DNA of 64,000 bases. Source: Alitta virens. Its lineage: Eukaryota > Annelida > Polychaeta > Phyllodocida > Nereididae. Below the pieces are notes generated by a model, which had not been told where the DNA came from, searched no databases, and was given only the letters and a program-made list of their open reading frames with translations. This document shows, in pieces, positions 13,852 to 49,430 of the stretch (the first letter of the stretch is position 1; every line of letters begins with the position of its first letter). Both the position numbers and the translations under genes were made by a program. The stretch is from NCBI GenBank assembly GCA_932294295.1, contig OW028582.1, positions 38,181,704 through 38,245,703 of the forward strand, written 5' to 3'.

Positions 13852-13928
13852 TTTTTTATAGCCTAAACCAACAATGTTAGATCTGCTAATTAGGTTAAAA
13901 ATTGTAATATTAAAAATTTGCAATAAAT

Positions 13929-13995
13929 GTGGGGTTAGCTCAGTTGGTAGTGTGTGTGAATTGTTGGTCGGGGACCTGGGTTCAAGTCCAGTTTA
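13929..13995 (+). repeat. tRNA-like sequence (SINE head or tRNA pseudogene) at duplication breakpoint
   Basis: An A-box-like TTAGCTCAGTTGGTAG and a B-box GGGTTCAAGTCC have tRNA spacing. The acceptor stem cannot close, so this is not a working tRNA. The near-identity between the two tandem units ends at GGGGTT here, within the first bases of the tRNA-like sequence. Confidence 0.6.
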
Positions 13996-16654: not shown

Positions 16655-19319
16655 ATGGAGGATTACAAGGAAGTATCTAATTTTCATAAGGCATTGGTGT
16701 TCTTTGGGAAAATGCATTTAAAGACTGATAAGTGGACTTTCTTAACTTTTGCGTCTATGATTCATAACATTTTGATTACTATATTGATCTTTGCTGTACT
16801 AATAATGAATTTGATTGCTTCTTCAAGGCAGGAAAGCTTTGCGGGAAAGTTGTCATATGATTATATGCAGTTAGTTTTCTACACCTGGTGTTTGATCACC
16901 TCAGTCGCTTTATTTTATATTTCTCAAAAACGACATAATATGTATGTACCAAAGACAGCTCTGCACAGTTCCTCGTCAATGGTCTTAATAATAGCATCTG
17001 TTGCATCAATCATTTACTCCACACTATGGATGGTTACACTTTTCGGTCTGCTAATTTACAGTGGCACGTTTATCCCAGAACTACAAGCGTGTCAAACCAG
17101 TGTACTAGATTTCAATTGTGTTGCCGGCATCAATGCAATTTCACTTCTTTACATCCAACCACCTAATACAATCATCAGCTTCTATCTTGCTTTTAATTGT
17201 ACAGTACTTGCAGGAGAAAACAAGATGTTAAACAGGAATCTGCAGGAAGCTTTGGAAGCAAAGAATACTGATTACAGAACTATGGAACGGTAAGTAATGA
17301 TGACATATTTTTATTCCAGACCATTCAAGCCTTGAATAAATTAAAATAATCTGAGAGCTTAATAAGTCAATACAAATGCATGACACTGACTGAAATCTGG
17401 TCACCTTATAAGAACAGTTGCCAGAGGCAGATGTAATGATGAAATGATGATGCTTGGGGTCCCCACAGTGTTAGACATTTACCCCAAGGCACCACCAATT
17501 TAATAATCTGATGCGACCGACATTAAGCTTATAACACGCTGGCACAGGGCCACGAGGTTACCTGACAGATACCTTAGGCACTAGGCCATCCAGCTGCTAA
17601 AGTGTTCAGTATCCAAAAAGAAACTGAATGCCTGTATAAAAGTGTGATCGCTTAATAAATGTCTGGCCTTAGTGATTAAACCACATGCCTCCTTTCCCAT
17701 TTTGGCACAATGTATTGTTTTGAGCAGCTTTGCTTTCGTGAGCAACTTTGCTTTCGTGAAGAAAAACTGATGCATATCTCAAGGACATGCCTCAAAAACA
17801 TGGTGTATGATCGCTGCAATGAAGTTTGCAAATGTGAAAGTGATGAGGCAAAAGTAATGACTAATAGATACCGACTCATGCAAACGATCAACTTTCACAG
17901 TGCATAGGGACCACCTGTGTAACATTATATTATAAATGACTGTATTTGATCTAGTCTTCAATTAAATTGTATGCACATTTAATGCAAAGTTATGCTGGAT
18001 ACACTAATTCTAAATGATCTCAGCATTTTATTTTTCAGTTTCCGCCTCAGATACCAAGAGTTATGTGGCTTCGTTGACAAATTTTCCTCCACTCACTCAC
18101 TTCTGATTGTGAGCGGAATTGCCGCACCAGTCACAGAAACTATACTAGCTGGATTCAACTTGTTTATCCCACAGCCTACCTTACCAGCAATGTTTCTTTG
18201 GCCCCAGTTGCTAAACAGTCTTCAGTGCCTCTTGGCTTTGTTTTCTGGAGCAATGTTTCTCTTGGATAAGGTCGGTATTACTTAAATTCAATTCTGCAGT
18301 ACTATGCGGATAGTTTCATGAGAATAGTTAAGTAAACAATTTGTAGCTAAAGCCAGAGGGACATAAGCAAAAAAAAAAAAATGTTAGTTTACTCCCTCCT
18401 ATTCACTATTCAGGATATAACCAACTTATACTCATTAGCCATATTTGATAATTTGCTTGATAGTTGTCTACGGCTCATACTATGCCAGAAAAGGTCAGTT
18501 TCCACTCAGGAGGGAGTTAACTAATATTTCCGTTGGTGATATCCCTCAAAGAATAATTGAAAAATCATCATGGCGGTGAAGAAATTAGGTTATTATGCTT
18601 CTCCTCACAGGCCAAGACTCCTCATGAATTCCTCTCTGGGTTGGCAGTTTCTGATTTAGATGACAAAATCGCGACTCAGGTACAGCTAAATTCTTTAAAT
18701 CTGAGATATACAACAACCTGAAGCTGCACTAAACAATAACACTGGAAAGAATGTTTTTAATTATAAATGAGACAATTAGGATTTATAAGATGTTTATTAT
18801 AATTGCATTAGTGTTTCAGTTGCAGCTTTCAATAGACAGTTTTTGATTGCTACTTCTTAATGACTCTTGTATGACATTTGTTTACACACCTGTAGTTTTT
18901 CTAATTATGTTATTTCAAAAGCATGATTCATGAACTATATCAGATTCTAGCTCATATAATCATAAGGATTTCGATTCAAGGTAGAGTTGTTCCTCAGAAG
19001 AGTGGAGGGATTTTCTGGAGTGACAGCCATGGGGTTTCTGAATCTTGACAGACCATTGATTGGTGTGGTGAGTTTAGCATTTCATAATCTGATGATTTTT
19101 GGTCCATACTTTGTTAATGGTTGATAGCTTGATAGTGTGGGTTTCCTGGTACCAGCAGTAAGAGTAAAGAATTGACTGTCAGGGAACAATATATTACAGT
19201 TTTGGTTATTTGCATTTCAGATATTTGGCCTAGTACTGACCTATATTGTGGTCATTGTACAGTTTGCTACAGCACCAGCAGCATCATGTGGAACAGCACC
19301 AACAAACAGTACCATGTGA
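16655..19319 (+). CDS. Gustatory receptor-like (GRL) seven-pass protein, gene A
   Basis: Five exons: 16655-17289, 18039-18270, 18611-18679, 18981-19067 and 19221-19319, with GT-AG borders, 635+232+69+87+99 nt, 373 aa. Exon 1 has four hydrophobic segments (around residues 35-55, 70-90, 108-135, 155-185). Exon 2 starts FRLRYQELC and holds two more (GIAAPVTETILAGFNLF and the SLQCLLALFSGAMFLL region). Exon 5 holds the last, ending TYIVVIVQF, which fits the TYxxxxxQF signature of insect gustatory receptors (7tm_7 family). Insect receptors of this family are ligand-gated channels with a cytoplasmic N-terminus; whether this one is a chemoreceptor is unknown. No lesion is seen. It is the most diverged member and the only one left of the B/C inverted pair. 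A SINE sits in intron 1. Confidence 0.85.
17395..17608 (-). repeat. tRNA-derived SINE, family 1, in GRL A intron 1
   Basis: On the minus strand an A-box-like GGCCTAGTGCCTAAGG at about 17590-17575 is followed by a degenerate B box. The far end carries a body segment (GAGGCAGATGTAATGATGAA when read on plus) shared with copies near 39285, 44565 and 52690. Confidence 0.6.
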
Positions 19320-20329
19320 AAAGTCAAATGAACCTCAATTTCTAACATTTAAAGGACTGATTTGAACATCACCGATTTTGAAATTATGAAAGGTAGAAAC
19401 TTCATGAGACATTTCAAATCTAGACGAAAAACCTGTTACATCTGTTTTTCCTTCATTAAACGCCAGAAAATTTTAACTCATCCATAGCCTGGTGTCATCC
19501 ATACACAATTCTTTAACAGCGGCAAATCTCAACAGTAATCTGGGATAAACCTCAACTGACTCAGTGGTGACAATAAGCTCTGAATCTCATAAATTCTTCA
19601 GCAAACTTCAAGCTCATGTGACTGACTGGCTGTTCTCAGTGTCCCCTTATATACCAGACGCCTCCAACAAATATTCAGAAAAGAATGTCCTTATTTTAAT
19701 TCTAGTCTAGAGAAACCAGAACTAAACACCATTTCAATTGAGGTCATACGACATAAACAACCTATTGTGCATTGTGCATAGACAAAGGCCTATAATATGC
19801 CATTATCTGAACAAAACAGTTATATATTATTACACTGACTTTAACTATCAACAATTAAGGATAATATAATGAACTGCAATACATTAATATAGACAATGGT
19901 TACAACATAAGACTACATAAGAAAACACTCGCATTCTTGTTACAATAGATCTAGGATCCAACAACTAAAGATTCCAAAGATCAAAATAATTTACTACATC
20001 TATACTCCATATCTTATCTTACATTTAAACCAATGGGGAATTAGACATCTGGAACTATCCTGTAAACTCTAATGGGTTTTAACACATTTCACAAGTTTTC
20101 AGCTATATTTAATTTAATATTCCCACACAAATATGACCAAAACACAGTCATAACATAGTCATTAATATATTGAAAAACATAAAATATCAAAACACCATAT
20201 GATTGATAATATAATTTATTTATTAGGGTGAAAACACTTTGTGAAACACTAGGTTTCATATCACTACACAATACTATTGTCCTTACTGATTTCCTACTTA
20301 CCAAAAATGTATTGGAAAAATATTAGTTT

Positions 20330-21310
20330 TGTCAGTCAGTACTAAATAAGAAACTTTAGAATAGTCAATAACAGCTAATGTTGTCTTTCTAATTCTAAGT
20401 GTTTACTTGCTAATAATCACCTATATAATAAATGATAAATCTATTGTCCATGTATTGTATCAAGCATCAAGCTATCGACAAATATCACTTCGCACTTATC
20501 AATGTTGAAAAGTGATAATTGCTAATGGGTGTTACAACCAATAGCACTTCTTGCCAAATTAGCTGACCTGGCAGGTAATATTATTATATTGGGCTAAAAC
20601 CATTCATGCTTACCATACCCAGAATACTTACTGGTATTTGCAAGCCTTACGTGATATTGTTGTTTGGTAAGCAAATTTGTCCGCCTGGCAAATTACCTTA
20701 CTGACCTTTTGACGTCATGATCAGCGTTTGCCGATACGCAATTTCAGAGTCGTTTTTATGAACAAATTCTTTATACATAATAAACTTGAAATTTGAAAAT
20801 AGGAAGACAATTGAAGCAGCTGTGTTATAAAAATTTATTACAAAGCGATGATGTTCATGAAGTTTGTCTGTGCCTCGTTTTCGTATTCTGTAGTATTTGC
20901 CAGGCAATATAACTGACTGTGATATTTGTCAGTGATATTTTATTTTCTAAAATGAAAACGGTGATATAAGGTTGTTTTCCATAAGCACCATTGGATGCAG
21001 CAATGGGGGTCATATTTACCTTCGAAAACAGTGGTTGCTTTCATGTGCTTAATCAATAGGAGAGAGTGGGGCAATTTGAGCCATGGATAAGTCAAATCAA
21101 GTCAAAATGTATTACCATTCTTTTCATATATATATATATAGTATACAATAATCAGTAAAGACACTGCTTGTTACATGCAGGTAACAACAACATGAAAGAG
21201 GTTTCCTGTATGTTATACATTGTTTATTATACATATATTTATAGTATCATAATGTAATTGAAAGTTCATTGTTATTAAAACCACTCTGATGTAGAAAGAT
21301 TACGAGTATG
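20330..21310. repeat. Downstream flank of GRL B, duplicated downstream of GRL C
   Basis: Several blocks here recur in the same order at about 27190-28270: an AGTC..AACAGCTAAT..TTGTCTTTCTAA block, a TTGATGTTGAAA block, GAGCCATGG near a 'GCTTGTTACA' block, and CATTG.TATTAAAACC.C.CTGATGTAGAAA. They show that the B/C duplication included at least 1 kb beyond the stop codons. The remaining intergenic DNA from 19320 to 21940 shows no gene. A TA microsatellite is at 21126-21140. Confidence 0.55.
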
Positions 21311-21339
21311 TGTGCCAAGGCAAAGAGGCGAATGATGAA

Positions 21340-21602
21340 GTGATTTTCATGGGCTGGATTCGAACCCAGGACCCACTGGTGGGCAGGTTAGTGCACTATG
21401 AGCAAACTTGGCTCCTGCTCTGTGAAGAGTGGTGGTTGTGGTGGATTAGGGCTTTACGTCCTGTATTTCTGCACCTGATGGGCTAATTAGGACAGGTAGG
21501 GACCATGGCAATAAGACAAAGGATGAAACAGCCATCCAACATGGGCTCGACCCGGGACCCTGTGGTTGGAAGCCCAGTGCGCTACCACTGAGCTAGGCCC
21601 CC
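21340..21602 (-). repeat. Two tRNA-like SINE heads
   Basis: Minus-strand B box GGGTTCGAATCC with upstream TTTGCTCATAGTGCAC (about 21345-21410) is one head. A second, clearer one (about 21535-21602) reads CCTAGCTCAGTGGTAGCGCA ... GGGTCGAGCCC. Neither closes a full cloverleaf, so these are SINE heads or pseudogenes, not tRNA genes. A C run of about 14 follows at 21607. Confidence 0.6.
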
Positions 21603-21941
21603 ACTGCCCCTCCCCCCCCCCCACTCTGGGGCAGTAATGTGTGAATTACTGTAAAATATTTGATTTTGTTCACTGTATAGAAAATCGAAGTATATACAAT
21701 GTATATATCAGTATACCAATGGCTTTTCTTTTAACTAAGTTAAAATGGAAACAGAAAACAGTGACATAACTGCAACATTAGACAAATTGTGTCAAATTTA
21801 AAACAATGTATAATAATTCAATATATCAAGCAGGAATGCACATTGTAGTACCAGATATTATGTTAATGAAAAGGTTCCTATTGTTGAACTTGAGGAATGT
21901 GATAAGTTGTTCAATGTTTTGAAAAAAACTGGACATATTCC

Positions 21942-24472
21942 TTATCCAGACTGCATGAACTGCACGATGATAACAATGTATGTCAGGATCAAGCCAAATA
22001 TCTGAAATGCAAATTCAATATTATGACCATAGCTATTTATAATAACTTTTGGTTGACTGCATATTTGTAAGCAGTATTAGCAAACAGTTAAACCAAAACA
22101 TACCCCTGCTGTGCTGGAATGATCTAGATTAATAAAACCCATCACAGAAACACCAGAAAAGTCGTGGACTCTTCTTAGGAACAATTCAAGCTGAAAATAT
22201 AAGATTCAGATCTTTTATTCCTCCTGTACAAATTTCTTACAAGTGAGGAAGGACTCTCTAAGACATACTTTTCAAGTGTCACCCCCCCCCCCCTCAATTA
22301 AAAAAAATGAAAATAAAATGTTTTTTGTTTTCCAATTATGAACAGTCCTATGAAGAGCACATGAACTGGCTTCTAAATAAATAATTGACATGTTGAAAGC
22401 TTATATGAAAACAAACCTGAGAATTTGTATCAGCATCTCTGAATTTGAGCCCCGATAGAAGATCGTAAGGCAGTTTTGCCTGAAAGTAGAGCAAATTTGA
22501 TGTTTTTCTGTGACTGCAATGGGGAGAAAATGTTCCACCAGAGGTCACTGGGACCGTAGCAGATTAAGTATCGTTAAATGACGTCATGTATATTATAATG
22601 TCATCCATGCAACAATGGTGTAGAGATGTAATGGTATTGTCCTTTTATTTGCTACAGTCATAGTGCCCCCTGTAGGCTCTGTTACTTTTTCTTGAAACTG
22701 AGCAGCATGGGTGAAATATAACGAAACAGATGATGATACAACATTAAAATTTAATAGAAGCCGTAACATCCCTAACACTGTCTGAGAGGTTTGTGCATGC
22801 AGGCATTCCTCCTTCCATTCATGATAAGCTCCTTCCATCTATGACAACCACAAAACCTTGTCCTAATATGGTTGCCAATCCTTTAAATCATTATAAACTA
22901 CTTTTTGCTTTGCGTACTACTTGTTCCAACAAAAGGACAATAAAGATATTCTGATTCTAAATCAACACATTTCACTTAAACTTGCCTGATCTAAGAGATA
23001 CATTCCTCCAATGAAGACAACACCCATGTAAACTAAACTGCTCAGCAAGTCCGGCCATATGTACAATGCTGGCATACCATGGTCTCTCACAAAGACATTG
23101 AAGCCGCAGAAAATAGTAAATATTGCTGGCACTACGATTCCGATTAAAAACAATAATCCATGTGTCTTGGAAAATTCATTGACAACAGTGCATAATTTAT
23201 GGTATCGTAGGCGGAAGCTGAAAAGAAAGTTGCATAATATGCAAAGAATTTGACTTGTATTTTACCCATAAGAATGGAATGTATTATTTATATCAAATAT
23301 CTTTAAAATTAATCAATATGAGACTGGTGTGACAAAAGATGTACTTGAATTGCATGGAGCTTTCTGTGAAAACAGTTAATTCACATCTGGAGACTTACTA
23401 CAGCCAATTTCAAAGACTTGGAAGAATTTCATATAATTCCAGGACTCCCATTGGCTGAGGGACTGCTTAAACCAATGGGAGCCCTGTATTCACACGACGT
23501 CTTCTGGAGCAGCTCTGTCTCTGCTCTGGGTTTGGTTTCCAAGTCTATTATATTGGCAAAGATTGTTTCTGTTGTTGAAGTAAGACATCAACATGGTATT
23601 TGACAAGAAAAGCTAAGATATTCAGACATTTTGACAAAACTTTGGCTGGCCATGTCCAAAACTTTGGCCATGCCAAGAAAGACTTATCTCCCATTCCTCA
23701 TTAAAAAATATTTTAATGCCATGCCAAAGACATCGAATTTTATTTTAAAATCTTATAAGTAAATACTGCATCTCCCACACAAAATGTGTTTTCAGAGGAT
23801 AATATGATAGGTTTATATGTTTAAAGTAACAACTTACCAAAGCAAAGTGTCCTGGTTGAAATCCTGCACCTCATTAGCAGATTTCATTTCATTGTAAAGA
23901 CACTTATACTCTTTTCCAATAACAAAATTGGTGAAAGCTAAGTACAGATTGACAAAGAAGTCAGGAGAGCTAATAAGCAAATATGCCAGTATATTTATGC
24001 CTGCAAGACAGTGTGGGTGCATAAAGCTTTCTGTACAGTTTTGCATATTTTCCTCTAAATCCTCAAAATAGGCAAATAAGATAGAGTTAGTCATAAAGCA
24101 TACAATAGAAATAATAATGCATAAAACTGCAAGAATCCGAAGATATCTTGAATTTTATGCTTGCTCTAGTGATGACACAATTCTGATTCTATTTTTCCAT
24201 GATAGGTAAAAAAATGTGACAGAAGTTATTAAAGTCCATAGATGAATGATTAACAAAAGGTAGTCATAGGACAGTTGTTGTCCAGGGTCATCATGAAACT
24301 TTCCAGTTGCCAAAATGTGCACTATCAGTACAAAAAGATCCAGTAGGATGACTGCGATGTTATATGCCATCAATCCAATTCGCTTGCAATTCCATTTACC
24401 ATCATGAACATGCATTTTTCCAAATGCTGTTAAAACATAGTGAAAGTATGCCAGTTCCTTAATATTTCCCAT
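21942..24472 (-). pseudogene. Gustatory receptor-like gene B, one in-frame stop
   Basis: Minus-strand exons: 24472-23838, 23217-22986, 22479-22417, 22190-22104 and 22001-21942 (635+232+63+87+60 nt, 358 codons plus stop). It is closely related to gene C exon by exon. Exon 1 has a TAA at 24157-24155 where gene C has TCA (Ser), about residue 106, before the third hydrophobic segment. Everything downstream remains open, with FRLRYHKLC at the start of exon 2 and TYIVIIVQF at the end. The exon 2 donor is GC (CAG|gcaagt), an accepted minor class; gene C has GT there. The exon 1 donor is gtaagt. With one stop it is either a young pseudogene, a segregating null allele, or a sequence error. Confidence 0.82.
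23385..23565. mobile_element. Foldback MITE with paired CCAAT boxes, GRL B intron 1
   Basis: CCAGGACTCCCATTGG is followed about 18 nt later by its complement CCAATGGGAGCCCTG. The outer arms carry ACTTGGAA and TTTCCAAGTCTA. Related copies occur at 29660-29815 (same intron of gene C) and 31400-31490. Confidence 0.65.
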
Positions 24473-26030
24473 CATTGTGCTGGAGTTTATCCTTTATCCT
24501 TTATAATATCCCGTATATAAATGAGGGAATGATAATGACTTGCTTTCAGAATAAAAGAGTGCTTAATTCTAACTAAGTATTGATTAAATGGGGTTCGATG
24601 ATTGTTTCCTTTTGTGTGTAATGGGTTTGCTATTTCCAGTTGGATTTTATGAGCAAATACTGTCTCCATTAGAGGAATGAACAAGTATGGAGAAATAATT
24701 ATTTTGTACTTGATCCTAAAAGCCATCAACAATAAAAGTGAAAGTACTTTTATTTCAGCTAGAAGGATAAATAGCAACACAATAGAGTTGGCAAGATGAT
24801 AAAAAAGGTATATACTATATTTCTGGCTGGGCCAGGTTACATAGCAGGTGCTGATATATAATAAAACCTAACCACATTGGTGGATCAGCTCAATGAAACC
24901 CATGAGTGAGATGTCTGGCAGAGGAACTCACAAGTGGCGAAGCCATGAGTGAGTTCCTTAGCCAGATAGCTCACGAATTGGTTGTATCTCTTTTTATTTT
25001 ATCCCACACTTTTACAGATATTTTCTGTATTTTTAGTTGAGAAAACTAAGAAATTAAGAATTGTTTTGACAAAATTCTTGTACTTCTCATATTGATATTC
25101 CTACAGAAACAGTGAGGATCAAACATCTCATTAATTTTCATGATGAACTCAGCAGCCAATTACAGAAGAGAACCAAGCAAACAGACAGACGTCACAACGT
25201 CCTCCCATTCACAACTTTGAAGGCTTTTAGCAGGAAAACAAACCTTTGCTAGACTGTATTTTTCATACAAACATTGGTTTTATACATCTAGAAAAACGTT
25301 TTGCGTTATCTGGTGTGAAGAAAGCTAATAGTTTAACAGACAGTGGCGTCGGTAACAACAAATCGCCGGTACAGATAAACAACGAATTATATATATGTAA
25401 TGTTAGTAGCAAGGAGAGATTCAGCTTCATGCCATTCTTGATTTGGTCAAAATCGGACAAGTATTGACGAAGTTGTGGCCATTGCATGTTCAATGTTGTG
25501 GATTTCAGACTGTTTGAAATCAACAGATTGTATCGTCGGCAAAAACGAGTCGCCGGTACAAATCAATTATTCCATTTATATAGGTCAAGAATTGACGAAG
25601 TTGTAACCATTTTCCAGATTTAATGGGCAAAGTGAAAGTGAAAGTGCTTTGAAGTCTACGGAGAACTATTAGTTTTCAAAATTACTTTTAAATAGCAAAT
25701 TTACTTACCTAGTTTGTGTTCATGAATAGTAGCCTATATAATAGGCGAAGCTGTGATTTTAGTGTGAAAATGAAAATGAAAGTGAAACTAAGCAACCTAA
25801 AGTAGTCCGTCCAATATGTAAATCAGGGATGGTGGAACACAATTTATTATAATTAGCAATGGTGGATCACAAAAAATACCACATGGGTTGTTCCTAATAG
25901 GTTTTCTATGAGGAACACAGCCAAGTGTGGGATATTAGACAATATAGCATCAGCATAACACTTTCTGGTTGTATCTCTTTTTATTTTACCCTGGTGTGCT
26001 TATGTATTGTAAGCCTTAGTAGGCGGGAAA
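24473..26030. other. Upstream region of GRL B
   Basis: The first 180 bp align with the region upstream of gene C, including a GTATATAAATGAG element and a TTTCC...TATCTCC-type block, so promoters were duplicated with the genes. A diverged direct repeat lies at 25320-25480 and 25520-25615 (CGCCGGTACA, ATTGACGAAGTTGT). No further gene is seen. Confidence 0.5.
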
Positions 26031-26032
26031 CA

Positions 26033-26300
26033 TAGAGGGGACTTCGGCATACAAACAGTGTAGAGAGTGGGCATTGAACCCATGTATCCATAGTCACTAC
26101 AATGGACAAAAAGATGAGGGCATCCCACATGATGGGACCAAACTGAGATGTGGCTCATAAACAATGCTGGGAGTGGGCTTTGAACCCATGCAACCATAGT
26201 CAAGTCACTACCATGGATGAGGTGATGAGGATTACATCCCATGTGATGGGATAGAGACTGAGATGTGGCTCATAGAAGTAGGCTTTGAACCTACAGTTAG
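26033..26300. repeat. Tandem repeat of about 110 bp with tRNA-like B-box motif
   Basis: The unit contains GAGATGTGGCTCAT, GGGCTTTGAACCCATG, AGTCACTACCATGGATGA and ATCCCATGTGATGGGA. About two and a half units are present. Partial units are at 26605-26665 and 26920-27030, and another array is at 33213-33470. GGCTTTGAACCC resembles a Pol III B box, so the repeat may derive from SINE heads. Confidence 0.65.
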
Positions 26301-26734
26301 TTTTATAAAATATGGTTGACTTTACGTAACCTATTCCTGGCTGCAGCTAAAGCCAGCTGCCTCTCTCTACTCCTAGCCTATAGTCGGCTTACACCTATCA
26401 CCACTGAAAAAATATAAACATTGGTAAATGTAAGAAATTCATATAAATCTAATATATCATAAATATGTTCTTTTAGATCTGTCTTCAAGTAGCCAGCTAT
26501 AGCCAGACAGTTCCGTTAAGTGGCAGGTAGCATCATAGGGCAGACGTTTGTCTGGCTTTGTCTAGGTTTAATTATATGGGCCGTTTTTAATTAAACTAAG
26601 TGTATGCCTCCACAGTCACCACCATGGATGAGGTGATGATAAGTAAAGACTGAGATGTGGCTCATAACACTGCAGTAGGTGACCTCTGTAACTTTTTGCT
26701 CCACTCCACCCAGGTGCAAAAGGGTTCTTGTCTA

Positions 26735-26900
26735 CCTGTAGAGATGGCAATTGTGAGTGCTTGACCTATGAAGTGCTGTCATTGGCTGCATGCTGGCTGT
26801 ATGTTCCCCAGGGAGTTGAGAAAGGCTCAAGCTTCAACAGGTCTGCCAAGGGTGTAATTGTTATTGTAGGTTGATAATAACAGATTCTAAACTCAGACAT
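26735..26900 (+). repeat. SINE body fragment, family 2
   Basis: GTTCCCCAGGGAGTTGAGAA and the following AGGTCTGCCAAGGGTGTAATTG and GATAATAACAGA blocks match the copy at 46190-46290. In outline they also match the minus strand of 52300-52430. Confidence 0.55.
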
Positions 26901-27921
26901 TTACATTTATTTTCATCCACAGTCACTACAATGTATGAGATGATTATGAGTGCATCCCATGTGGTGGGACAGGCACCAACTGCCACTACCATGGACGAGA
27001 TGATGGTGAGTACAATGTCATCCCATGTGATGCCATACATACACATAGTTTTTCCATGTAAATTATATTATACAATGTCTTAACACTTACACAATCTGTT
27101 TTGGAACATTTTTGTCTAATATAGTCTCTATTATGGTATGTGTGAGTGCTAACATCATTCAAAAGATGGTGTGTTTGCAAGGTCAGTACTACATAAGCAT
27201 ATTCAGAATAGTCTGCAACAGCTAATTTTGTCTTTCTAAATCTAGGTGTCAGTACCTGGCTAAAACTCCAGCTTAGATAATGAATATATTTCTATAGTGC
27301 AAGACAAATATCGCTTTCCACTAATTGATGTTGAAAGGTAGATAATGGCTAATGGGGACATATCATAACAGTGATTTTTTTCACACACTGACATATATAT
27401 GGTTAATTGATTGGGGAGATTTGGGCAAGTTGAGCCATGGGGTAATTGGAGCACCTGCTTGTTACAGGCAACTGACAACAGCTATTACAATAAGATTCTT
27501 TTTCAAAAAAAGAATAGATACCTGGTGTTGTGTGTAGAATAGGGAAATCCTGCCAAAACTTTTAACTTGCGCTTTCGTAGTTTTGGGAGTACAGCTATAA
27601 CTGACACACCTTTAATTTAGTGAAGATCTGACCAGTAGAAGCCAAGAAAATTGATTACAGCAAATTTAGGCCTGGAAAAATCAGCGTTTTAGACGATCCC
27701 GTGGACGATTTTGTACGACGCAAAAAAATCACGGATTTTGACAGGCTTGAATTTGTACTATAATCACACTTTTCTCGGCTTCTACTAGTCGGATCTTCGT
27801 CAAATTTGGTTTTTAAGTTGCACGTTTATTTCACGGTTCTTGTGGTGTGCAATTTACAGCTGTACACCCAAAAGTGTTTGCAGAATTTCTGGGTGAAACC
27901 GCGCTATCCCCCTCTAGTCCC

Positions 27922-28101
27922 TGCCTACGCTGCTGCCGCTGCCTACGCTGCTGCCGCTGCCTACGCTGCTGCCGCTGCCTACGCTGCTGCCGCTGCCTAC
28001 GCTGCTGCCGCTGCCTACGCTGCTGCCGCTGCCTACGCTGCTGCCGCTGCCTACGCTGCTGCCGCTGCCTACGCTGCTGCCGCTGCCTACGCTGCTGCTG
28101 T
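27922..28101. repeat. 18-bp minisatellite, about 10 copies
   Basis: Unit GCCTACGCTGCTGCCGCT, nearly perfect. Because 18 is a multiple of 3, both strands stay open: AYAAAA repeats in one frame, a Cys-rich repeat in another, GSGSSV on minus. There is no start or splice context suggesting a gene. It lies just downstream of GRL C. Confidence 0.9.
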
Positions 28102-28298
28102 GTTGACCCAAATATTTTCAGCCCTGAGACCGTTCGTTCATAAATATACCTGGTCTGTCAGAGAATACAGTATGATTCTTTACTTGATAAGGGCCTAGGC
28201 CCAGGTATAAAAGGAGGTGATTCTCTGTGTTGAAAATGCATTGTCATTAAAACCTCCCTGATGTAGAAACAAGCAAGACTGCACTTTTTATTGACATA

Positions 28299-30733
28299 TT
28301 ATATCATTGCAGAGGCTCCTACTGTTACACTTGACTGCATAAACTGCACTATAATAACGATGTATGTCACGATTAAACCAAATATCTGAAATGAAAATGC
28401 ATGATCAATTCAATAGCTATTTATAATAACTTGTGGGAGACTGTAACTTTGTATGCAGTACTTGCAAATGGTTTAACCAAAACATACCCCTGCTGTGCTG
28501 GAATGATCCAGATTAATAAAACCCATCACAGAAACACCAGAAAAGTCATGGACTCTTCTCAGGAACAATTCAAGCTGAAAAAATAGATTCAGATTCAGAT
28601 AATTTATTTTACTTGTACAAATTTGTTTTAAGTGGGGAGGGACTCTCGCTTTTCGAGAATTACCACCTCAAGTACCAAAAATAATTTAAGAAAGTTTGAT
28701 ATTCAATGTAACAGTTTGTTATCCAATTACGAACAGTCCAGTGAAGAGCATATACACTCACTCCTGCCAGATAGCTTCTAATAGATAAATGAGATTTTAA
28801 AGTTTTATAACAAAACTTTTATGAAAATAAACCTGAGAATTGGTGTCAGTATCTTGGAATTTGAGCCCCGATAGAAGATCATAAAACAGTTTTGCCTGAA
28901 AGTAGAGTACATTTGACGTGATAAAAGTGACAACAATTGAAACTGAGCAGCATGGGTGAAATATACAGAGGCTGCGGGCTAATGGATCAGTCTGAGAGAA
29001 AAAAAACGGTCCCTTTTTTATAATAAGCATCATAATAACATGAGTATGCAAAATACCACACACACATGAAAGATAAAAGTATCTGCTTTGAAGTAAAGCT
29101 TTGTTATGATCAGGCAAATTATTTGCTCTTAGCTCTAGATAGCACTGAAAAGCTGACAAAGTGTCGGGTCAGTGAAACAGACGACACAGTATGCTACAAT
29201 CAAACTTACCTGGTCTAAGAGATACATTCCTCCAATAAAGACAACACCCATGTAAACCAAACTGCTCAGCAAGTCAAGCCACATATACAATGCTGGCATA
29301 CCATAGTCTTTCACAAAGACATTGAAGCCGCAGAAAATAGTGGTTATTGCTGGAACTACAATTCCGATTAAAAACAATAATCCATGTGTCTTGGAAAATT
29401 CATTGACAACAGTGCACAATTTGTGGTATCGTAGGCGGAACCTGAAAAGAAAGTTGTTCAATATGTGATGGATTTGACTTTGATTTGACCCACAAGAATG
29501 GAAGATAATACTTATATCAAAACTTTAAAGTCAATCACTCTGTAACTGTTGTGACAAAAAAAAAAACACTTGAATGCATGGAACATTCTATAAAAGAAGT
29601 TATATCATATCATGAGACTTATTACAGCCAATTTCAAATACTTGCAAACCAATATAATTGAACAAACTTGGAAGCTAAACTCCAGTGGACGTCATGTGAA
29701 TCCAGGACTCCCATTGGCTGAAGGACTGCTTTAACCAATGGGAGTCCTGGATTCACACGGCATCTTCTGGATCAGCTCTCTCTGTTCTGGAGTTTAGTAT
29801 CCAAGTCTATGATATTGGCACAGGCTAATTAAAACAGCATCATTTTTTCTGTTGTGATGCTAGCATTTGACCACAACACCTCAGACATTTTGACAAAATG
29901 TTGGCCATGTTCAGAATTGCTTGCCTACATTTGCTTAGGATTTTTATGCCATACAAAAGACATGGTGTGTTGATTAGAAATTGCATAATTATGGCTGTAG
30001 ACTGAATATGACAATGACAATAAAATTAATTATTTTTACCCAAAATTAATATTATATAATAATGATGGTTGATATTTAAATTTACAGCAAAAACTAACTT
30101 TATTAAAGCATTCTGGTTGAATTCCTGCCCATCAATAGCAGATTTCATTTCATTGTAAAGACACTTGAACTCTTGCCCAATGACGAAACAAGTGAAAGCC
30201 AAGTAGAGATTGACAATGAAGTCCGGAGAGCTGATAGGCAAATATACTAGCATATTTATGCCTGCAAGACACTTTGTGTGCATTATGGATTTTGCACACT
30301 TTTGCAGATGGTCCGCTATATTCTCAAAATAGGCAAATAAGATAAGATATAGGGATGAGAATAAAATAGAAATAACAATACATAAAACTGCCAGTATTTG
30401 AAGATATCTCGAATTTGATGCTCGCTCCATTGATGACACAATTCTTATACTGTTTTTCGATGACAGGTAAAACAATGTGACAGAAGTTATTAAAGTCCAT
30501 AGATGAACGATTAATACCAAGTAATCATAGGACAGCTGTTGTCCTGGTTCATTATAAAATTTACCAATTGCCAAAATGTGCACTATAAGCCAAAAAAGAT
30601 CCAGTAGGATGACTGTGATGTTATACACCATGAATCCAATTCGCTTGCAGCTCCATTTGCCATTATTAAAATGCATTTTTCCAAATGCTGTTAAAACGTA
30701 GTGAAAGTATGCCAGTTCTATGATATTGCCCAT
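28299..30733 (-). CDS. Gustatory receptor-like (GRL) seven-pass protein, gene C
   Basis: Minus-strand exons: 30733-30099, 29441-29210, 28895-28833, 28574-28488 and 28385-28299 (635+232+63+87+87 nt, 367 aa). Acceptors are normal and donors are gttagt, gtaagt, gtttat-type and gtatgt. The protein begins MGNIIELAYFHYVL and has GKMHF then four hydrophobic segments in exon 1. Exon 2 opens FRLRYHKLC and carries GFNVF and GGMYLLDQ. Exon 4 reads FLRRVHDFSGVSVMGF, and exon 5 ends TYIVIIVQF, the family signature, before a short tail. No lesion is visible. Its closest relative is gene B, in the same orientation about 6.3 kb away. A foldback MITE lies in intron 1 in both, so that insertion predates the duplication. 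The family is inferred from topology and motifs. Confidence 0.85.
29660..29815. mobile_element. Foldback MITE, GRL C intron 1
   Basis: A near-perfect palindrome: TGAATCCAGGACTCCCATTG, a loop of about 18 nt, then its complement to GGATTCACA. Outer arms CTTGGAAGCTAAACTCCAG and CTGGAGTTTAGTATCCAAG also pair. It is the orthologous insertion to the one in gene B intron 1. Confidence 0.8.
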
Positions 30734-31247
30734 TTTTGTGCTGAAATTTAAACTTTATAATATTCAGTATATAAATGAGAGAACAATTATAATGCCCTGC
30801 TTTCAGAATGCAACTAAGTACTAATGTTATGGCGTTTCGTGTTTGTTTCCTTTTATAATTTGTTTTGCAAAATTTTAGCGGTTTCCAGTCGGATATCAAG
30901 AGTAAATATTGTCTCCATTAGTATGTAATTGTGCATGTATAAACATGCGGTTCTATATGTAAATAAATGCAAGTCCATGGTTGCGTGGCTTTCCTTTAAT
31001 TGCACTTACAGCCAATTTCAGACATGACACATGACAGCGAGACAAGGCCAAAGACTGTTCCACGGAGTGAGAAATGGAACACATGTCATCATTGTAACAT
31101 CTTTAAGTTGCCCCACTCTACTAAGCCTATGAGAACATTTGTGTTGTGATAAGGGGGAGTTTGTGACCTGGCCTGCACTATATCCATTTCGAAAACCACA
31201 ACAGGTGGCATTTTAGTACAGTACAGTACAGTAAAGAATTTTACATT
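30734..31247. other. Upstream region of GRL C
   Basis: This aligns with the DNA just upstream of gene B for about 170 bp, including ATTATAAAG-like and AGTATATAAATGAG sequences. A GTACAGTACAGTA microrepeat is at 31217-31233. No gene is seen. Confidence 0.45.
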
Positions 31248-32422
31248 CGATTGGTGAATAGTCTCAGCTGATAGTTTAGAGGGAGATGTTTGTGTCCAGT
31301 GGTGTGCCATTGCCCTTTTTGCTGAGGTTTTTTGCCTAAATTTGTACCTGCCCCCTGGTGATTTTAAAGTCAATATCATACAGTTGGAGACCAATCCATA
31401 AGACTTGGAAGCTAAACTCCAGAGGACTTCATGTGAGTCCAGTACTCTTATTGGTTGATGGACAGCCTTAACCAATGGGTGTCCTGGGCCCGGTTTCACG
31501 ATTGCTGTCCCCAACGGGGCATGCCCCGTGATGGGGCTTGCCTAGTGGGGATTACCCCATCGGGGAATGCCCCATTGAGTTTCATCAAAGTTTGGGGCAT
31601 CTTTCTCCACGGGGCAAGCCCCAGCTGATCAGGGAATGAAAGTCCCCAAAAAAGGAAAAATTCGCGACGTCATGCTTCCCGCCGAAAAAGTAGCGCTACG
31701 CCTATAATTTGTCTGTTCAGTGACCATAACTGTAAGACGATGATAGTGTAATGTTTTACCTATCAGATAAACTAAAAATTTTGAAAATCGGATGGAAAAT
31801 GACGAAGTTATGAAGGGAAAACGTGTGACGAATCATGACGTACATGACGTTGTTTATATTGTATTATGCCTCACTTCCATTCTGGTTGCCTAACGACCCC
31901 ATGTTTGTTACATAAATGGCGCCACATAGGGTTTATGTTGGATCCAAATAAAAACGTAATTTATTGGCTAAAATAACACAAAAATGGCACCATAAGAAAG
32001 TAAATAGTTATAATGGTGTGCTCCGAAATTTATTTTACAAAAACTCTTAATTTGCTGTTTTTAAGGAGCGTTCGATTTTGGGGATAGCAACGGGGACAGC
32101 TAGGGAGGAGCTCTCATTTGGGGCAAGATTGGGGACACATTGGGGCATGCCCAACGTTCGTGAAACGCAATTTTTGATCTGGAAAGCAACGGGGACATGT
32201 CCCAGTTACGGGGCTTGCCCCAACATTTTCGTGAAACTGGGCCCAGGTTTCATATGATGCCCTTTAAATGCACTTAAAATCATCAGAAGGCAGGTGCAAG
32301 TTTAGGCAAAAAGCTTTGGCAAAAAGGGCAGTGGCACATATTACTGGACACAGACTATCTGTGATAAAACATAGCTGGAATATTTCTCCCTCTGAATGTA
32401 AACTGAGATAATTCACCAATCG
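31248..32422. mobile_element. Large foldback element with other elements nested inside
   Basis: Arms of roughly 130-170 bp face each other. CGATTGGTGAAT at 31248 pairs with ATTCACCAATCG ending 32422. CATTGCCCTTTTTGC near 31308 pairs with CAAAAAGGGCAGTG near 32325. GCCTAAATTTGTACCTGCC near 31334 pairs with GGCAGGTGCAAGTTTAGGC near 32289. Inside are a copy of the CCAAT foldback MITE (31400-31490) and, within that, a GGGCCC-ended MITE (31485-32245). Confidence 0.7.
31485..32245. mobile_element. MITE with CCTGGGCCC...TTTCACGA inverted ends
   Basis: The left end CCTGGGCCCGGTTTCACGA pairs with the right end TCGTGAAACTGGGCCCAGG. The arms continue with many GGGGCATGCCCC/GGGGCTTGCCCC palindromes, giving marked GC richness in an AT-rich region. 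The interior (31640-32080) has no coding capacity. Confidence 0.75.
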
Positions 32423-33212
32423 TCATGCTAGCTCAAGCTAGAGTGTGCCAGATGGCTCACGGTGTTTTGGAACATTTTAAACTTAGCTGAATCTTTCTGA
32501 CAAATGTTTTCCAAATCTAAAGGGAAAAGGAAGTTAGTAACACCAGCCACCTTGTGAGAAATACATATGCTGTGCTCAATCCTTGCTTTTAGGATCTAGT
32601 ATACTTGACTACCGTTTACATTTTCGTAACCACGTCACGTGTTATTTAGTACATTACAGCACACTGAGCACATAATAAAAGGGATTTATCGACATGTATT
32701 GCAATTGGAGAGTTGGTCAACAAAGATACATTTGAGGCTGGGTCAGGTCCAAGACCAGGTACTAATATGGATCACATTGCATCAGCAAAACACATGGACA
32801 AAACATTTCATTTATAGGTGCAGATTTATGTTCACTTTCACACCTTGTATTCTCCTGCAAACTGGCTAGCCATACTTTTATAGTACTACCATAGTCAGAT
32901 GTTAATGTAAAACGTCGTTAACTTCAACTACCCCATAAGGCATCAGCAACTACTTTCTGATTGCATCTTATAGCTGAAGCTTAATTTTACCATTTTAGGG
33001 GGGAAAATATACCCAGAAATATATATACATACCACATCGTTACTATCATCACTATTTATATAATTCATCAAATTTGCATTTGTCTGACCTCTTTTTCTGA
33101 AGACCCAAATTAATTGCAATTGATATGACCATAGGGGCCCCCTCAATTTTGGCAACCAGTCTTTGTAGAGGGGATTCCTTGAAACCGGGAAACAATTGTC
33201 TACCTGTATATT

Positions 33213-33522
33213 ATAACAGTGCAGGGTTTGGGCTTTGATTCCATTCACCCACAGTCACTACCATGGATGAGATGATGATGAGTATATCCCATGTGATGGG
33301 ACAGGGACTGAGATGTGGCTCATGAACAGTGCAGGGAGTGGGCTTTGAACCCATGGACCCACAGTCACTACCATGTATGAGATGATGATGAGTGCATCCC
33401 ATGTGATGAGTACATCGCACTCAGATGTGGCTCATGAACAGTGCTGCAAGTAAAATTTGAACCCACATATCCAAAATTAGTGAAAACAAAACAAGCTACT
33501 ATACTAACCACTACACCAAACA
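33213..33522. repeat. 110-bp tandem repeat array ending in a SINE head
   Basis: This holds two-plus units of the repeat described at 26033-26300. At 33430-33522 a minus-strand tRNA-like head follows: TGGTGTAGTGGTTAGTATAG (A box) and GGGTTCAAATTTT (B-box-like). The neighbouring 32430-33210 shows no gene. Confidence 0.6.
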
Positions 33523-33889
33523 CTAGCAGTAAATTCCTTTTCTAAATTTTAATTTAACTAGTAAACGGTAAACGTACTATTGATTCCACAATGTGTACTC
33601 TCCACACTAATTTCACCGCTCTCACATATTACACCTGTCTAATTGAAAAGCAAGATTTTTGTTTGCTTGCACTGAATTCTGTATCAAAGGTAATCATTTT
33701 CAATTCTGTTGTCTGTCGTTGCTTTACATGACAAATATATATCACAGAAAAGGAACTATTTACTTCAAAAACATAAAAAAATAGTTATCTGAACACAAAA
33801 TTGATTATATGGCAGTTTCTGGTGTTAGTGTTAGTTTTAAAGCTTCCCATCTGAAATGACAACTTGACAGATGAATGTATGTCTAGAAA

Positions 33890-36702
33890 TTGTCAGACAT
33901 GAAGGAACTAAAATATTTTCTAAACGTCTTGATTGCATTTGGCAAATTGCATGTCAATGTTGGAAACAGAAATTGGAAGTATATTGCAATGATGATATTC
34001 AATGTCATAATCATCTTTCTCAACATCATAATGGTGATCCTGAATATAATTTCATCTGAGGGAATACGCGGCAACACTGGAGGAAAATTATCTTATGTTT
34101 ATTTGGTTGTTTGTATATATTCATGGTCAATCATCACATCTATTTCGATCTTCTACATGTCCAAAAAAAAACATTTTGACGTCATCAAATCACTGAAAGT
34201 CACGTATCCTCCCAAAGATACATTATTACTGGCAATAACTGGAATTGTAACAACTTTCGCCTGGTCGATCGTGCACTTCGTAATATTTTCTTATTATGGA
34301 AACACACCAGCCAGTTTACTATCATGCAAAGAAAGATTCCTGGATGATAACTGTGTCTCAGGCCTCAACAGACTTGCAATTATAACATTAATTTTCCCAA
34401 ATTTCGTTACTAACATGTATTTGGCATTTTCTTGGTACGTACTTGGAAGTGAGTTCATAAGTTTTTACAATGACCTGAGAGGCTCCATCAAAATACAAAG
34501 TTTCAACACATCTGAACTTTTGAGGTAGGCGGTCATTAATAATGGTCCTTTTTTAGCCATATAAAGTAACACACGAAATCCAGTCTTCAGAAAGGCAGTT
34601 TTGTATCCATATCTGCAGATTAGCTGATATTAAAATCACTTACCTTAACCTCTTTCTTTTTCTTTACACACAACATATGTCAGTCAAGAATACACTAGAT
34701 TCAAAGTGAAAGGAAGTTGGGAGTCCTTACCATGACAAATGCACATTCACTCCATTGGCTTTGCAATTCAGTAGCTTGAAAATAAACCCTGAGTAACAGG
34801 CACTTGTTGACTTGATGCCTCATGTAAATGACTGCTAATATTTTAATGACCAGCTCAGGTTTTGTATCCATAGTGTGTAGATTGGGTAATCAAGCCCTTA
34901 ACCTCTTTGACTATTCAACAGCTTTTTTTCTTACATACAATGACTTCTATTTTAGTCAAGAATATTCATTGGATTGGTTGTGGCAAGATTCAAGACAAAT
35001 TTATTTGCCTTCATACAATAATATAATAATAAGTTGAATCAATCAAGAGGTGTCCTTTCGGAAACTATGATAGCTCATGTATGAGCCACCCAGAGTAATT
35101 AACTGAGTTAGGAAGTTGGGAGTCTTTACTATGACAGATACACATTCACTCCATTGGCTTTACAGTAGCCTGAAAATAAACCCAGGGACTGAGCAACAGG
35201 CACTTATTAACTTGATGCCTCATGTATATGACTGCAGCCCAGGGTTTGTATCCACAGTGTGTAGATTGTGTAATTGTGAAGCCTTTAACCTCTTTGACTA
35301 ATCAACAGCTTCTTTTCCTACATACAATGACTTAAATTTTAGTCAAGAATATTTGCTGGATTGGCTGTGGCAAGAGGTGTCCTTCGGAAACTATGATAGC
35401 TCTTGTAATTAACTAGTCTATAGATTATACATATACTCTTGCAGGTTTCGAATTCAGTACCAGAGGATCTGCAAGTCAGTTGATGCGTTTTCTTCAACGC
35501 ATTCAGTTTTGATTATGTCAGGAATTGTGGCATCAACAGTTACAGTGATCTTCTGTGGTTTCAACTTGTTTTTGCAAGATAAATATATGCCTGCACACTA
35601 TCTTTGGCCAGAGTTACTGCGAACCTCCCAGTATTTGGTTATAATCTTTGTTGGTGGTGTTGATGTCTTGGATCAGGTAGGTCTTGACCATCAGCATATA
35701 TTACAGCAGCTACATCATTAAATATTTCTAATTAGGCTTTTTGAGAGCATGGTTTCACCCTACCCTTTGTATAGGACATGCGTATATAATTGATTAGATG
35801 AAGTTTAATTGGTGCAAATGTCTTTGCCATAACCATTTTATAATTTAATAATGAATTTTCTGAAAGACAATAGAATATACAACGTGACAACATATACTGC
35901 ATACAGAGGCAAATGCCATGGTAAGAGACTATAGTCCTGGGTTATCTCTGGTAATGCATGGCTCTGATTGTAACATAAGCAAAAGAGCTGATATTTATCA
36001 TATTGCATGATAATATTTGACATCAGTGGAGGCTCGATCATGATCACCAGTAATTATTCATCAAATAAAACAAAAGGAAGAAGATATTTAAGTGTTGTTT
36101 TTAATTTTCAGGCTAGATTGCCCTATGATTTTCTGTCAGAGCTTGAAGTAGAGGACGTAACATTCCTGTCCCAGATAAATTAATTATTTTTTTTAAGCAA
36201 CATTTTTCAATGCGGACAAACTTATATGGTTGTTCATCAACATTTTTCATCTTACTGTGAACTTTATTGTTCTGAAAACTCTTAATTGAAAGTAAATTAC
36301 CAAATATTACCTTTTTCAAATAATTTTGAAGTGAAATGTGCAGGGTTCTAGACTAGTACAGTGCTGGTCTTCAGGCCAGGTTGCCAGGTGTCATACTGCT
36401 GTTAAACTTGCAATGTTGTTTCTCTGCTTTCAGATTGACTTGTTTCTCAAAAGAGTGGAGAGCTTTTCTGGTGTCTCTGCGATGGGTTTCTTTAATGTAG
36501 ACCATTCAAGTGCAACTGCGGTGTGTTTTTAGAAAATAAAATTCATTTTTAATGTGGACATCTCATTGGACCTTGCAATATACCTACAATCAGATTGTTT
36601 TACTAAGATATTGCTTTGCAGATTTTCGGTATGATTGTGACATACATTGTCGTCATTGAAAAAAAGACTGAAACACATGTTATTGTCAACATGCCATTAT
36701 AG
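33890..36702 (+). pseudogene. Gustatory receptor-like gene D, probably decaying
   Basis: Exons by homology: 33890-34524, 35445-35676, 36112-36174, 36434-36520 and 36622-36702 (635+232+63+87+81 nt). Three features depart from the family. The position matching the other genes' ATG is TTG (33890); an in-frame ATG lies three codons later at 33899, so translation is still possible (362 aa). The exon 3 donor is ATAAAT instead of GTAAAT. A GT inside exon 3 (gac|gtaaca, 36157) would shorten the exon by 18 nt and keep frame. The terminal motif is TYIVVIEKK, losing the conserved QF. The reading frame is otherwise open throughout, with FRIQYQRIC in exon 2 and FLKRVESFSGVSAMGF in exon 4. It could be a functional variant using the alternatives. 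Confidence 0.75.
34580..35404. repeat. Diverged tandem repeat in GRL D intron 1
   Basis: About 34705-35070 and 35108-35404 align in order (GGAAGTTGGGAGTC, CATTCACTCCATTGGCTTT, AACAGGCACTT, TTAACCTCTTTGACTA, GTGTCCTT.CGGAAACTATGA). A partial third unit is at 34590-34705. They are non-coding. Confidence 0.75.
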
Positions 36703-37140
36703 AAAAAACAGAGTAGACAATTTCTGCTTCTCAAGTAACTATGAATACTCACCATTAAAATGTTGCATTGTGTTGATATGTTAGTAATGATTTTGGCTGC
36801 ATACCAAAATCATCTATGGTAAATTTTTTATGTTTGTTTTGGTTGTGACACTCATCACCGTAATTATTCATGGAAGCTGGAGCAACTTATCATAAAGAAA
36901 TGCAAACAGTCTGTCAAGGAACTACACAGGTACAGTGTCTACCAACATATTGCCTTTGAATATCCAGGTAATATCGATTTACCAATATATATGTAAATCC
37001 CATGTCTTATAACAAACACTAAGCATATAATGGTATTGACCAATATCAGATCCATGCATGAAATTACACAATTCGGCTTGCATAACATAACCATGCATAT
37101 CTGCAAGTTCATTTTGGAAAATAACACCGGTGGAATAAGG

Positions 37141-39219
37141 ATGGCTGGAAACAACGAAATCAAATACTTTCAAAATATTCTGATTGCTTTTGGGAAAATG
37201 CATATTAATTACGGCAGATGGACTTGCAAACATGTTTTACTGATAATACATAACATCGTATTTATGGTGCTTAATTTTGCATTCACAGTTCAGCATGTGA
37301 TTGCATCTCAAAAATTGTGCACACATCCTGGAAGAGAACTCTCCTATGAGTACTTGGTGTTGACTTTTCATATGTGGTCGATTATTACATCAGTCACAAT
37401 GTTTTACATGTCTCGCAAAAATACGATCCGAGCGACAATCGCATGTTACTCACCGCCTCCAAAATTTGCAAGATTTTTCTCGATATTTTTAATTACTTTT
37501 TCACTGGTTTCATCAATTTTCACAGCATTTCTATTACGTTACTTCGGAAGAGTTTTGCATGAAATCAAACATTTTCTGAGTGATCTATTTGATGTTCAAT
37601 GTTCTAGAGCTCTGATTAATATCTCATCTTTTCCCTTAATGTCACCTAATTTCTGTACTTGGCTTTTATTTGCTTTATGCTTGGGAGAGAGTTCAAGCAT
37701 CTTAACCACAACATGAAAAATTCCATAAAAGTACAGATTTGGAGGTCTAATGAAATTTTGAGGTAGGTTATTACTATATTTTATATCTAAGCCGTAAGAT
37801 AGAAATTCAGACAGCTAATCAGTACATTGACAATCAATGCCCTTGAAAGTACTGGGCCTCCTCATGGCAAAGGTGGTAAAACTGCGGATAAGGACCCCAA
37901 ACACCAGTGGCCAAAACAGGTCTCCGCGCAGTCCAGTTATACCTGTCCTGTTGTCCAACACCTACCCCAGATATAAAGAGCCTTTCAGGTTGACATATTA
38001 TTAAAGATATACTGTCCTTCACTCACCCTTCTTCTTATTAATGTTCCGCTGATAAATTGAAGAATTATGTTAATACATTTATATTAATTTGCAGGTTCCG
38101 TCTCCAATACAATAAGTTGTGCAACTTGGTCGATGTTTTCTCATCATCACACTCTGCTCTGCTCCTGCCAGGAATTGCAGCTCCTGCAGTAATCATGATC
38201 CTCAGTGGATTTAACTTATTCATGGAAAATAATTCAATGACTGTCTTTCTTTGGCCTCATTTGCTGTCAAGCACGGTTTACCTAGTGACTGTTTTCATCG
38301 GAGGAATTTATCTTTTGCAACAGGTAGGGGTTAGAATTTGTTGAGTCAAAGCCACTTTATATTAAGGAAACTCTTATTGGACTATCGAAAGTGTAATTAG
38401 GTTTCCATGTAGTTTATAAATAATCATAATGCACTGCAAATCTGCAGGATTAGAAAGTTAGAAACACTGCTTGCTTTCGTATCCTCATAGCAAGTTATAG
38501 GCCTACATGCATACATGTATGCTCGTGACTAGGTCTCTTTTTAAACTAATAATCCTTACTAAATATTTAGTAATTTTTGCCATAAGTCCACAGGCAACAC
38601 TAGAAACAAATTGATAAACATCTCAGAAAAGCTTTTGTTGACTTCATCCAGTACTTAATTGCAGGCAAAACTACCCTATGCGTTCCTGTCTGAGCTAGAA
38701 ACCACTGATGTTGCTTGCATGTGTCAGGTAAAGTGTTTTGAATTATCACCAAAGTAATGGCCAAGTTTACAATAACAAACATACTTTAAATGAGTTGAAA
38801 ATCATTAAAGTAGACTGAGCAATATATCCAAATTTCACTTAAATAGAAATTGTAGAGTTGGCAGGTACGCTGTGACTATAGTTTCCTGTTTCGAGAAAAC
38901 ACTAAGATCGATTTCTTCTCTTTCAGCTTGATTTGTCTCTGAGAAGAGTTCATGAATTTTCCGGTGTTTCTGTCATGGGATTTATCAATTTGGATAATTC
39001 CAGTGCTGCTGCAGTATGTTCCAAATTACTTTATTCTGATATAAGAGTGTAGATATTGCTGAATCAATTTAAAGTTTGCTATAGGCCTATTCTCTAATTT
39101 GTGATTTGTTTACTTTGGAGATTTTTGGCATGATTGTGACATACATTGTCATAATTGTGCAGTTCATGCAAACAGGACCTGTTAATTGTAATGCAATACA
39201 AACAAACTGTACTGTGTAA
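37141..39219 (+). pseudogene. Gustatory receptor-like gene E, frameshift in exon 1
   Basis: Exons: 37141-37762, 38095-38323, 38665-38727, 38927-39013 and 39121-39219 (622+229+63+87+99 nt). It begins MAGNNEIKYFQNILIAFGKMH. Near 37683 the frame of the first 180 codons runs into stop. The frame that continues the family pattern (REFKHLNHNMKNSI...NEILR) is offset by one base, so a single base was lost at TTGGG/AGAGAG. Exon 1 length modulo 3 confirms this (622 against 635 in the others). Exons 2-5 are clean: FRLQYNKLC, GFNLF, AKLPYAFLSELE, LRRVHEFSGVSVMGF and TYIVIIVQF. The exon 5 acceptor is ctttggag. It is a pseudogene, or a sequencing error in a G run. Confidence 0.8.
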
Positions 39220-40625: not shown

Positions 40626-41274
40626 TGCCAAAATAATGATTATGACAAAATCCAGAACAAAGTCATTATAGTTGACCACAAACTCAATCTAGGCAGTTGA
40701 CCGCAACTCTTAGACAGTCCAGTCATTGTTAAAAGGAGGTGGGCCAGATCTTGGTGGTCAGCTGTTTGAGGGTGTCGTAGCATGTTACGCAAAGGTAATT
40801 AGAGTCCAAGATGTCCTAATTTTTAGCTCTTTATTTGTTAATAGCATTGGGTCAGGCGTGAATATATTAACACAGCCAAATGAGCATCAAAAGTATTGTA
40901 TATCCAATCTTTTCCTGCCATTTAATTTGTTCCAGAGGTTTGCACAGTAAGAAGTATTCAGTTGACTATCATTATCAATGCAATAGCATGTATGAATGGG
41001 GCTTTGCTATTGAATATCAGGAATTGAGAAAAATCTATTACATACAGTGAGCAATTCAGGTGCACGTTTTGTGCAGATTTTGCATGCGCAGTTTGTGAGC
41101 AGTTCACAAGCATTTTGCATTCATTTCATCCCTCATTAGTATGTTATTAACCTGCATCAAGTGAATGAAAGTTGTTTTTCTTATTTGTCATTATCTGCTT
41201 GATTGATACCATGCATCCTAAATGTTTAAAAAGAGTTATTGACCTTATGATCTTTCATTTTAGAAAGAAACATG

Positions 41275-41386
41275 GTAACGTCTCACCCAGGTGACGTCTC
41301 ACCCAGGTGACGTCTCACCCAGGTGACGTCTCACCCAGGTGACGTCTCACCCAGGTGACGTCTCACCCAGGTGACGTCTCACCCAG
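41275..41386. repeat. 16-bp minisatellite, seven copies, with E-box and CRE-like core
   Basis: Unit GTGACGTCTCACCCAG repeated seven times without change. Each junction makes CAGGTG (E-box) next to TGACGTCT (ATF/CREB-like). The unit is not a multiple of 3, so it is not coding. There is no spacer variation, so it is not a CRISPR array. Confidence 0.95.
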
Positions 41387-42855: not shown

Positions 42856-43090
42856 TGTTTCCTCTCGGGATTCTTCTTCCCTTATTCTTTTGTTTTGTCT
42901 TTTTGTATCCTTCGGTTCCTCTCGGGATTCTTCTTCCCTTATTCTTTTGTTTTGTCTTTTTGTATCCTTCGGTTCCTCTCGGGATTCTTCTTCCCTTATT
43001 CTTTTGTTTTGTCTTTTTGTATCCTTCGGTTCCTCTCGGGATTCTTCTTCCCTTATTCTTTTGTTTTGTCCTTTTGTATCTTTCGGTTCC
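42856..43090. repeat. 57-bp minisatellite, about four copies
   Basis: The unit begins TTCCTCTCGGGATTCTTCTT. As 57 is divisible by 3, all three plus frames and one minus frame stay open for 90-120 codons; the minus frame gives a charged REEPKDTKRQNKRIREEES repeat. Pyrimidine-strand bias is strong. No splice or promoter context is seen. Confidence 0.9.
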
Positions 43091-43169
43091 CCCAGGATTC
43101 TTCTTTCATTCCTGACTTCTGGTTTTCTTTGGATATGCCATCTCTTTGGCAATCTCAAAATATATGCTA

Positions 43170-49369: not shown

Positions 49370-49430
49370 ATGATAGATAGATAGATAGATAGATGGATGG
49401 ATGGGTGGATAGATAGACACGTAGACAGAC

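Follow-up and report, generated by a model that had tools for sequence, protein, structure and literature searches.

GRs (gustatory receptors) and insect ORs are tetrameric cation channels (PMC11526382, section 2.3.1). According to the accessible sections of PMC7746228, gustatory receptor-like (GRL) proteins have been reported from Annelida, Mollusca, Nematoda, Echinodermata, Hemichordata, Cnidaria and Placozoa, the animal GRLs being recognised by a motif in the seventh transmembrane segment (TM7) and by introns at the 3' end of the gene, and functional data for the non-insect members of the family are very sparse. Insect gustatory receptor genes form clusters by duplication, as the genes described here appear to have done, and the Drosophila genes Grl62a, Grl62b and Grl62c offer a further parallel: these are tandem GRL-type genes for which, as in the present cluster, local duplication is the explanation (PMC9998090, in the part available).

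Here we describe a cluster of five GR-like genes within a window (the whole stretch of DNA that was analysed) of 64 kb. The cluster had been noticed in an initial annotation of the DNA and its presence is confirmed. The spread of the family and the existence of tandem Grl genes in Drosophila are already known, and the cluster is a new, well-formed example that leaves the known spread of the GRL family unchanged; the coexistence of intact and damaged copies makes it moderately interesting. Among the matches listed in a literature search, no title or abstract opening described tandemly clustered GRL genes outside the arthropods, most subscription journals lying outside the scope of that search.

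Organisation of the cluster

When both strands were read and exons were joined at splice sites, five paralogous genes were found at 16655-39219, with A, D and E on the + strand and B and C on the - strand. This is the arrangement that had been proposed, and pairwise protein identity across the cluster is 37-82%, which exceeds what chance would give. The genes, with their coding exons in order of transcription, are as follows:

Gene A, 16655..19319, + strand: exons 16655-17289, 18039-18270, 18611-18679, 18981-19067 and 19221-19319 (635/232/69/87/99 nt); apparently intact, 373 aa
Gene B, 21942..24472, - strand: exons 24472-23838, 23217-22986, 22479-22417, 22190-22104 and 22001-21942 (635/232/63/87/60 nt); damaged
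Gene C, 28299..30733, - strand: exons 30733-30099, 29441-29210, 28895-28833, 28574-28488 and 28385-28299 (635/232/63/87/87 nt); apparently intact, 367 aa
Gene D, 33899..36702, + strand: exons 33899-34524, 35445-35676, 36112-36174, 36434-36520 and 36622-36702 (626/232/63/87/81 nt); probably damaged
Gene E, 37141..39219, + strand: exons 37141-37762, 38095-38323, 38665-38727, 38927-39013 and 39121-39219 (622/229/63/87/99 nt); probably damaged

Searching the 64-kb window by tblastn with A and C returned the same five genes, the best match listed elsewhere having an E-value of 0.023.

Every gene has five coding exons, with lengths spanning 622-635/229-232/63-69/87/60-99 nt across the cluster. The initial annotation gave the first four as 635/232/63-69/87 nt, with E alone deviating. 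This holds for exon 2 (232 nt in four of the five genes, 229 nt in E), exon 3 (69 nt in A, 63 nt in B, C, D and E) and exon 4 (87 nt throughout), but exon 1 is exactly 635 nt in A, B and C only, gene D (626 nt) deviating as well as E (622 nt). Exon 5 measures 99 nt in A, 60 nt in B, 87 nt in C, 81 nt in D and 99 nt in E. Other shared features that had been claimed were borne out. Intron phases, by count, are 2,0,0,0 in genes A to D and the same in E once a frameshift is allowed for, so that all five genes have three phase-0 introns at the 3' end, with damage to a donor site in D and to an acceptor site in E; exon 2 begins with FRLRY in A, B and C, with FRIQY in D and with FRLQY in E. Likewise, the TYxxxxxQF-type ending reported for four of the five genes is found in A (TYIVVIVQF) and in B, C and E (TYIVIIVQF), conforming to TYhhhhhQF, and is absent from D, where the segment reads TYIVVIEKK, without QF.

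The exon plan, seen in all five genes, agrees with the hallmarks set out in the accessible sections of PMC9998090 and PMC7746228. Compared by description, the animal GRLs treated in the available text of the latter have the TM7 motif, the 3' introns, protein length and the 7tm_7 profile in common with the genes here. Drosophila Grls outside the Gr36 group differ, in that they are described as having no recognisable TM7 motif (PMC9998090, in the part available), whereas the present genes keep it.

Assignment to the GRL family

The insect chemoreceptor (7tm_7) signature was the central claim of the initial annotation, which also proposed a search with the corresponding Pfam profile (PF08395, gathering cutoff 26.6 bits). 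That search has now been run and upholds the claim, four of the five proteins scoring above the cutoff: A at 41 bits (E 2e-10), C at 35.2 bits (E 1.1e-8), B, with its stop read as X, at 34.3 bits (E 2.2e-8) and the joined exons of D at 29.9 bits (E 4.7e-7). None of the five proteins scores above the cutoff of any other Pfam family. Gene E falls below the cutoff at 9.7 bits (E 0.63) and is outranked there by a weak row for an unrelated family (E 0.043), itself below its own cutoff; because the profile fails for E, this gene is placed with the others by kinship, being 38-45% identical to them. There was no 7tm_7 row for the single pieces of E (the strongest row, at E 0.0092, belonged to another family and was below cutoff), for exons 1-3 of D alone or for the two reversed-sequence controls, made from A and C. 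The TM7 motif, the three phase-0 introns at the 3' end and the charge pattern of the proteins point to the same family. In our assessment the five genes are very probably clustered members of the GRL branch of the 7TM ion channel superfamily that includes the insect GRs and ORs.

A single relative was recovered at E-values up to 10 from one single-sequence search and one three-sequence profile search, the latter scoring the 7996 candidates that shared most words. This is a 225 aa protein from ENA (P0001) that covers exon 1 only and shares 55% identity with A and 25-30% with C, D and E. It joins A in the exon 1 tree (support 100/100), gives no 7tm_7 row and could be either orthologous or paralogous.

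Divergence and probable decay

Over 350-366 residues, proteins B and C are 81.5% identical, as against 37-45% for the other nine pairs (44% for E and C), and they group together both in the exon 1 tree (support 94/92) and when the exons are joined (99/99). Silent sites are near saturation in all pairs but this one (pS 0.64-0.74, with A-B giving no dS), so only the B-C ratio is relied on here: dS is 0.32, dN 0.107 and dN/dS 0.33 (bootstrap 0.24-0.48), indicating that B and C parted mostly under purifying selection.

The genes differ in their state of preservation. In A and C the reading frame is open throughout and the splice sites are usable; the exon 4 acceptor of A is AAG, and an AATAAA lies 7 nt past the stop codon of C. 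Gene B has an in-frame TAA in exon 1 (24155-24157) and a GC donor after exon 2, gene D has AT where a GT donor is expected after exon 3, and in gene E the frame shifts within the final third of exon 1 and exon 5 is preceded by a GAG acceptor. These lesions had gone unnoticed earlier, and only A and C are clean: A and C look intact and B, D and E appear damaged, barring errors of assembly at these sites.

The combination of one younger pair (B/C) and three damaged copies suggests, at the level of sequence, that the cluster evolves by gene birth and death, in which local duplication would add genes, B/C being the latest addition, and small lesions would remove them. The active turnover described in the initial annotation fits the same younger pair and damaged copies but goes beyond the evidence, sequencing or assembly error being a possible source of the lesions.

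Possible function

By analogy with the rest of the family, the intact genes A and C most likely encode ligand-gated cation channel subunits. The two proteins would be expected to sit in the membrane with the N-terminus inside, four subunits assembling such that TM7 would line the pore, and a small ligand would then open this cation pore. The likeliest role for such channels is a putative use as sensory chemoreceptors. The more specific proposal, that a non-arthropod animal has here a locally expanding and decaying GRL array serving as putative external chemoreceptors, is a tentative one and, taken as a whole, somewhat doubtful. If it is true, the assembly of taste repertoires from the GRL family, as seen in arthropods, would have arisen, or persisted, elsewhere.

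It is quite possible, if short of probable, that the genes encode true GRLs whose role lies inside the body, in development or in the sensing of an internal metabolite, light or temperature, and that they are not external chemoreceptors at all. Such a role sits less well with a multi-gene cluster containing both a recent duplicate and damaged copies, clusters of this kind being more usual for chemoreceptor families than for single-copy developmental genes. In its favour are the early developmental expression of GRL genes in Nematostella and in a sea urchin and the action of a nematode relative in motoneurons, all described in the accessible sections of PMC7746228. As regards external chemoreception, the cluster supplies two intact genes with clear models, together with their damaged sisters, as concrete constructs with which to ask whether non-insect GRLs sense external chemicals.

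The proposed decay of the array has its own alternative, namely that errors of sequencing or assembly account for the lesions seen in B, D and E, all five genes being functional. All the lesions are small, the surrounding coding sequence is well preserved and a near-perfect 7.6 kb direct repeat in the window could itself be an assembly artefact. Genes D and E, however, each carry two independent departures (the donor site and the TM7 motif in D, the frameshift and the acceptor site in E), and we consider it unlikely that all five genes are functional; real damage to B, D and E is the preferred reading.

Genomic setting

Across the whole 64-kb window, CpG is strongly depleted (observed/expected ratio 0.41) and TpG is in excess (1.32). 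A CpG ratio of 0.41 is lower than that known for most arthropods and argues against a typical insect; CpG and TpG together, read against customary yardsticks, point to a germline-methylated, non-insect animal. The earlier statement that the genome is not that of an insect is in line with the CpG depletion but exceeds the evidence, this depletion being its sole basis.

The source might also be a non-insect arthropod (a crustacean, chelicerate or myriapod), a group in which ordinary clusters of gustatory receptors are common. While this would accord with proteins that pass the 7tm_7 profile, and with the fact that both of the PDB matches named below are gustatory receptors, it is at odds with the CpG and TpG ratios and with the finding of no arthropod-specific gene among the ten flanking pieces scanned, and we regard it as distinctly improbable. 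Above cutoff, the flanking pieces yielded DDE_Tnp_4 (one), Reeler (two) and Lipocalin_2 (one), with a third Reeler and one reverse transcriptase row below cutoff; these domains do not settle the phylum.

Topology and structural comparison

Hydropathy analysis identifies seven segments in every protein but D, which has eight, one of them marginal. Lysine and arginine are concentrated in the N-terminal-side loops as compared with the other loops (22 versus 2 in A, 22 versus 2 in B, 19 versus 5 in C and 20 versus 6 in E), from which an inside N-terminus is predicted for these four proteins, as in insect GRs and ORs. The orientation of GPCRs is opposite to this. Membership of a GPCR family, rhodopsin-type or other, might be argued from the seven hydrophobic segments but is hardly credible: the charge pattern predicts the N-terminus inside, and for none of the five proteins was a GPCR family listed at E-values up to 10 (most rows above 0.1 being removed by the HMMER filters).

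The GRL assignment was also compared with known structures. Against PDB, gene A matched two gustatory receptors over the TM7 end at E-values of 0.016 and 0.038, which is suggestive but not significant, and a profile of A, C and D matched the same two at 0.068 and 0.14, again not significant. In these insect gustatory receptors (PDB 8uvt and 8vc1), the LDRPL...TY(5)QF end aligns with that of the present proteins (E 0.016-0.14, not significant), A and C being shorter (367-373 aa) than the PDB chains (453-491 aa). The remaining PDB matches were not significant, and gene C alone gave no gustatory receptor at E-values up to 10.

Exons were also folded separately, exon 1 from A with P0001, C, D and part of E, and exon 2 from all five genes. 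Both models are weak (pLDDT 53.1 for exon 1 and 58.4 for exon 2). With the weak exon 1 model, Foldseek gave 80 matches at E-values up to 10, none of them at 0.001 or below, and no GR or OR chain among the best 50 of the 80; VIA-align, with the same weak model, aligned 293 chains, and the matches listed (50 entries) were generic helical proteins with no GR or OR among them. Neither the models nor these searches are given weight here.

Other features of the window

A near-identical direct repeat occupies approximately 1-6320 and 7621-13940, at a spacing of 7615-7620, and carries the DDE_Tnp_4 transposase piece. Three sampled 300 nt blocks are 100% identical, small indels are few and divergence sets in from about 6321 (judged from the initial 40 of the 1000 columns that differ). 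The two copies arose either by genuine duplication or as an artefact of assembly.

On the - strand, 47729-55228 contains parts of two Reeler-domain genes, where a 189 nt repeat is 97% identical between copies 4.1 kb apart, suggesting recent duplication at the Reeler genes too, and 59112-59348 contains part of a gene resembling lipocalins (Lipocalin_2, E 1.2e-7). A perfect 18-nt tandem array (27921-28098; 9.9 copies, 100% matches) lies just downstream of gene C, and two further arrays, of 16 nt (41274-41386; 7.1 copies) and 57 nt (42859-43105; 4.4 copies), both show 97-98% matches.
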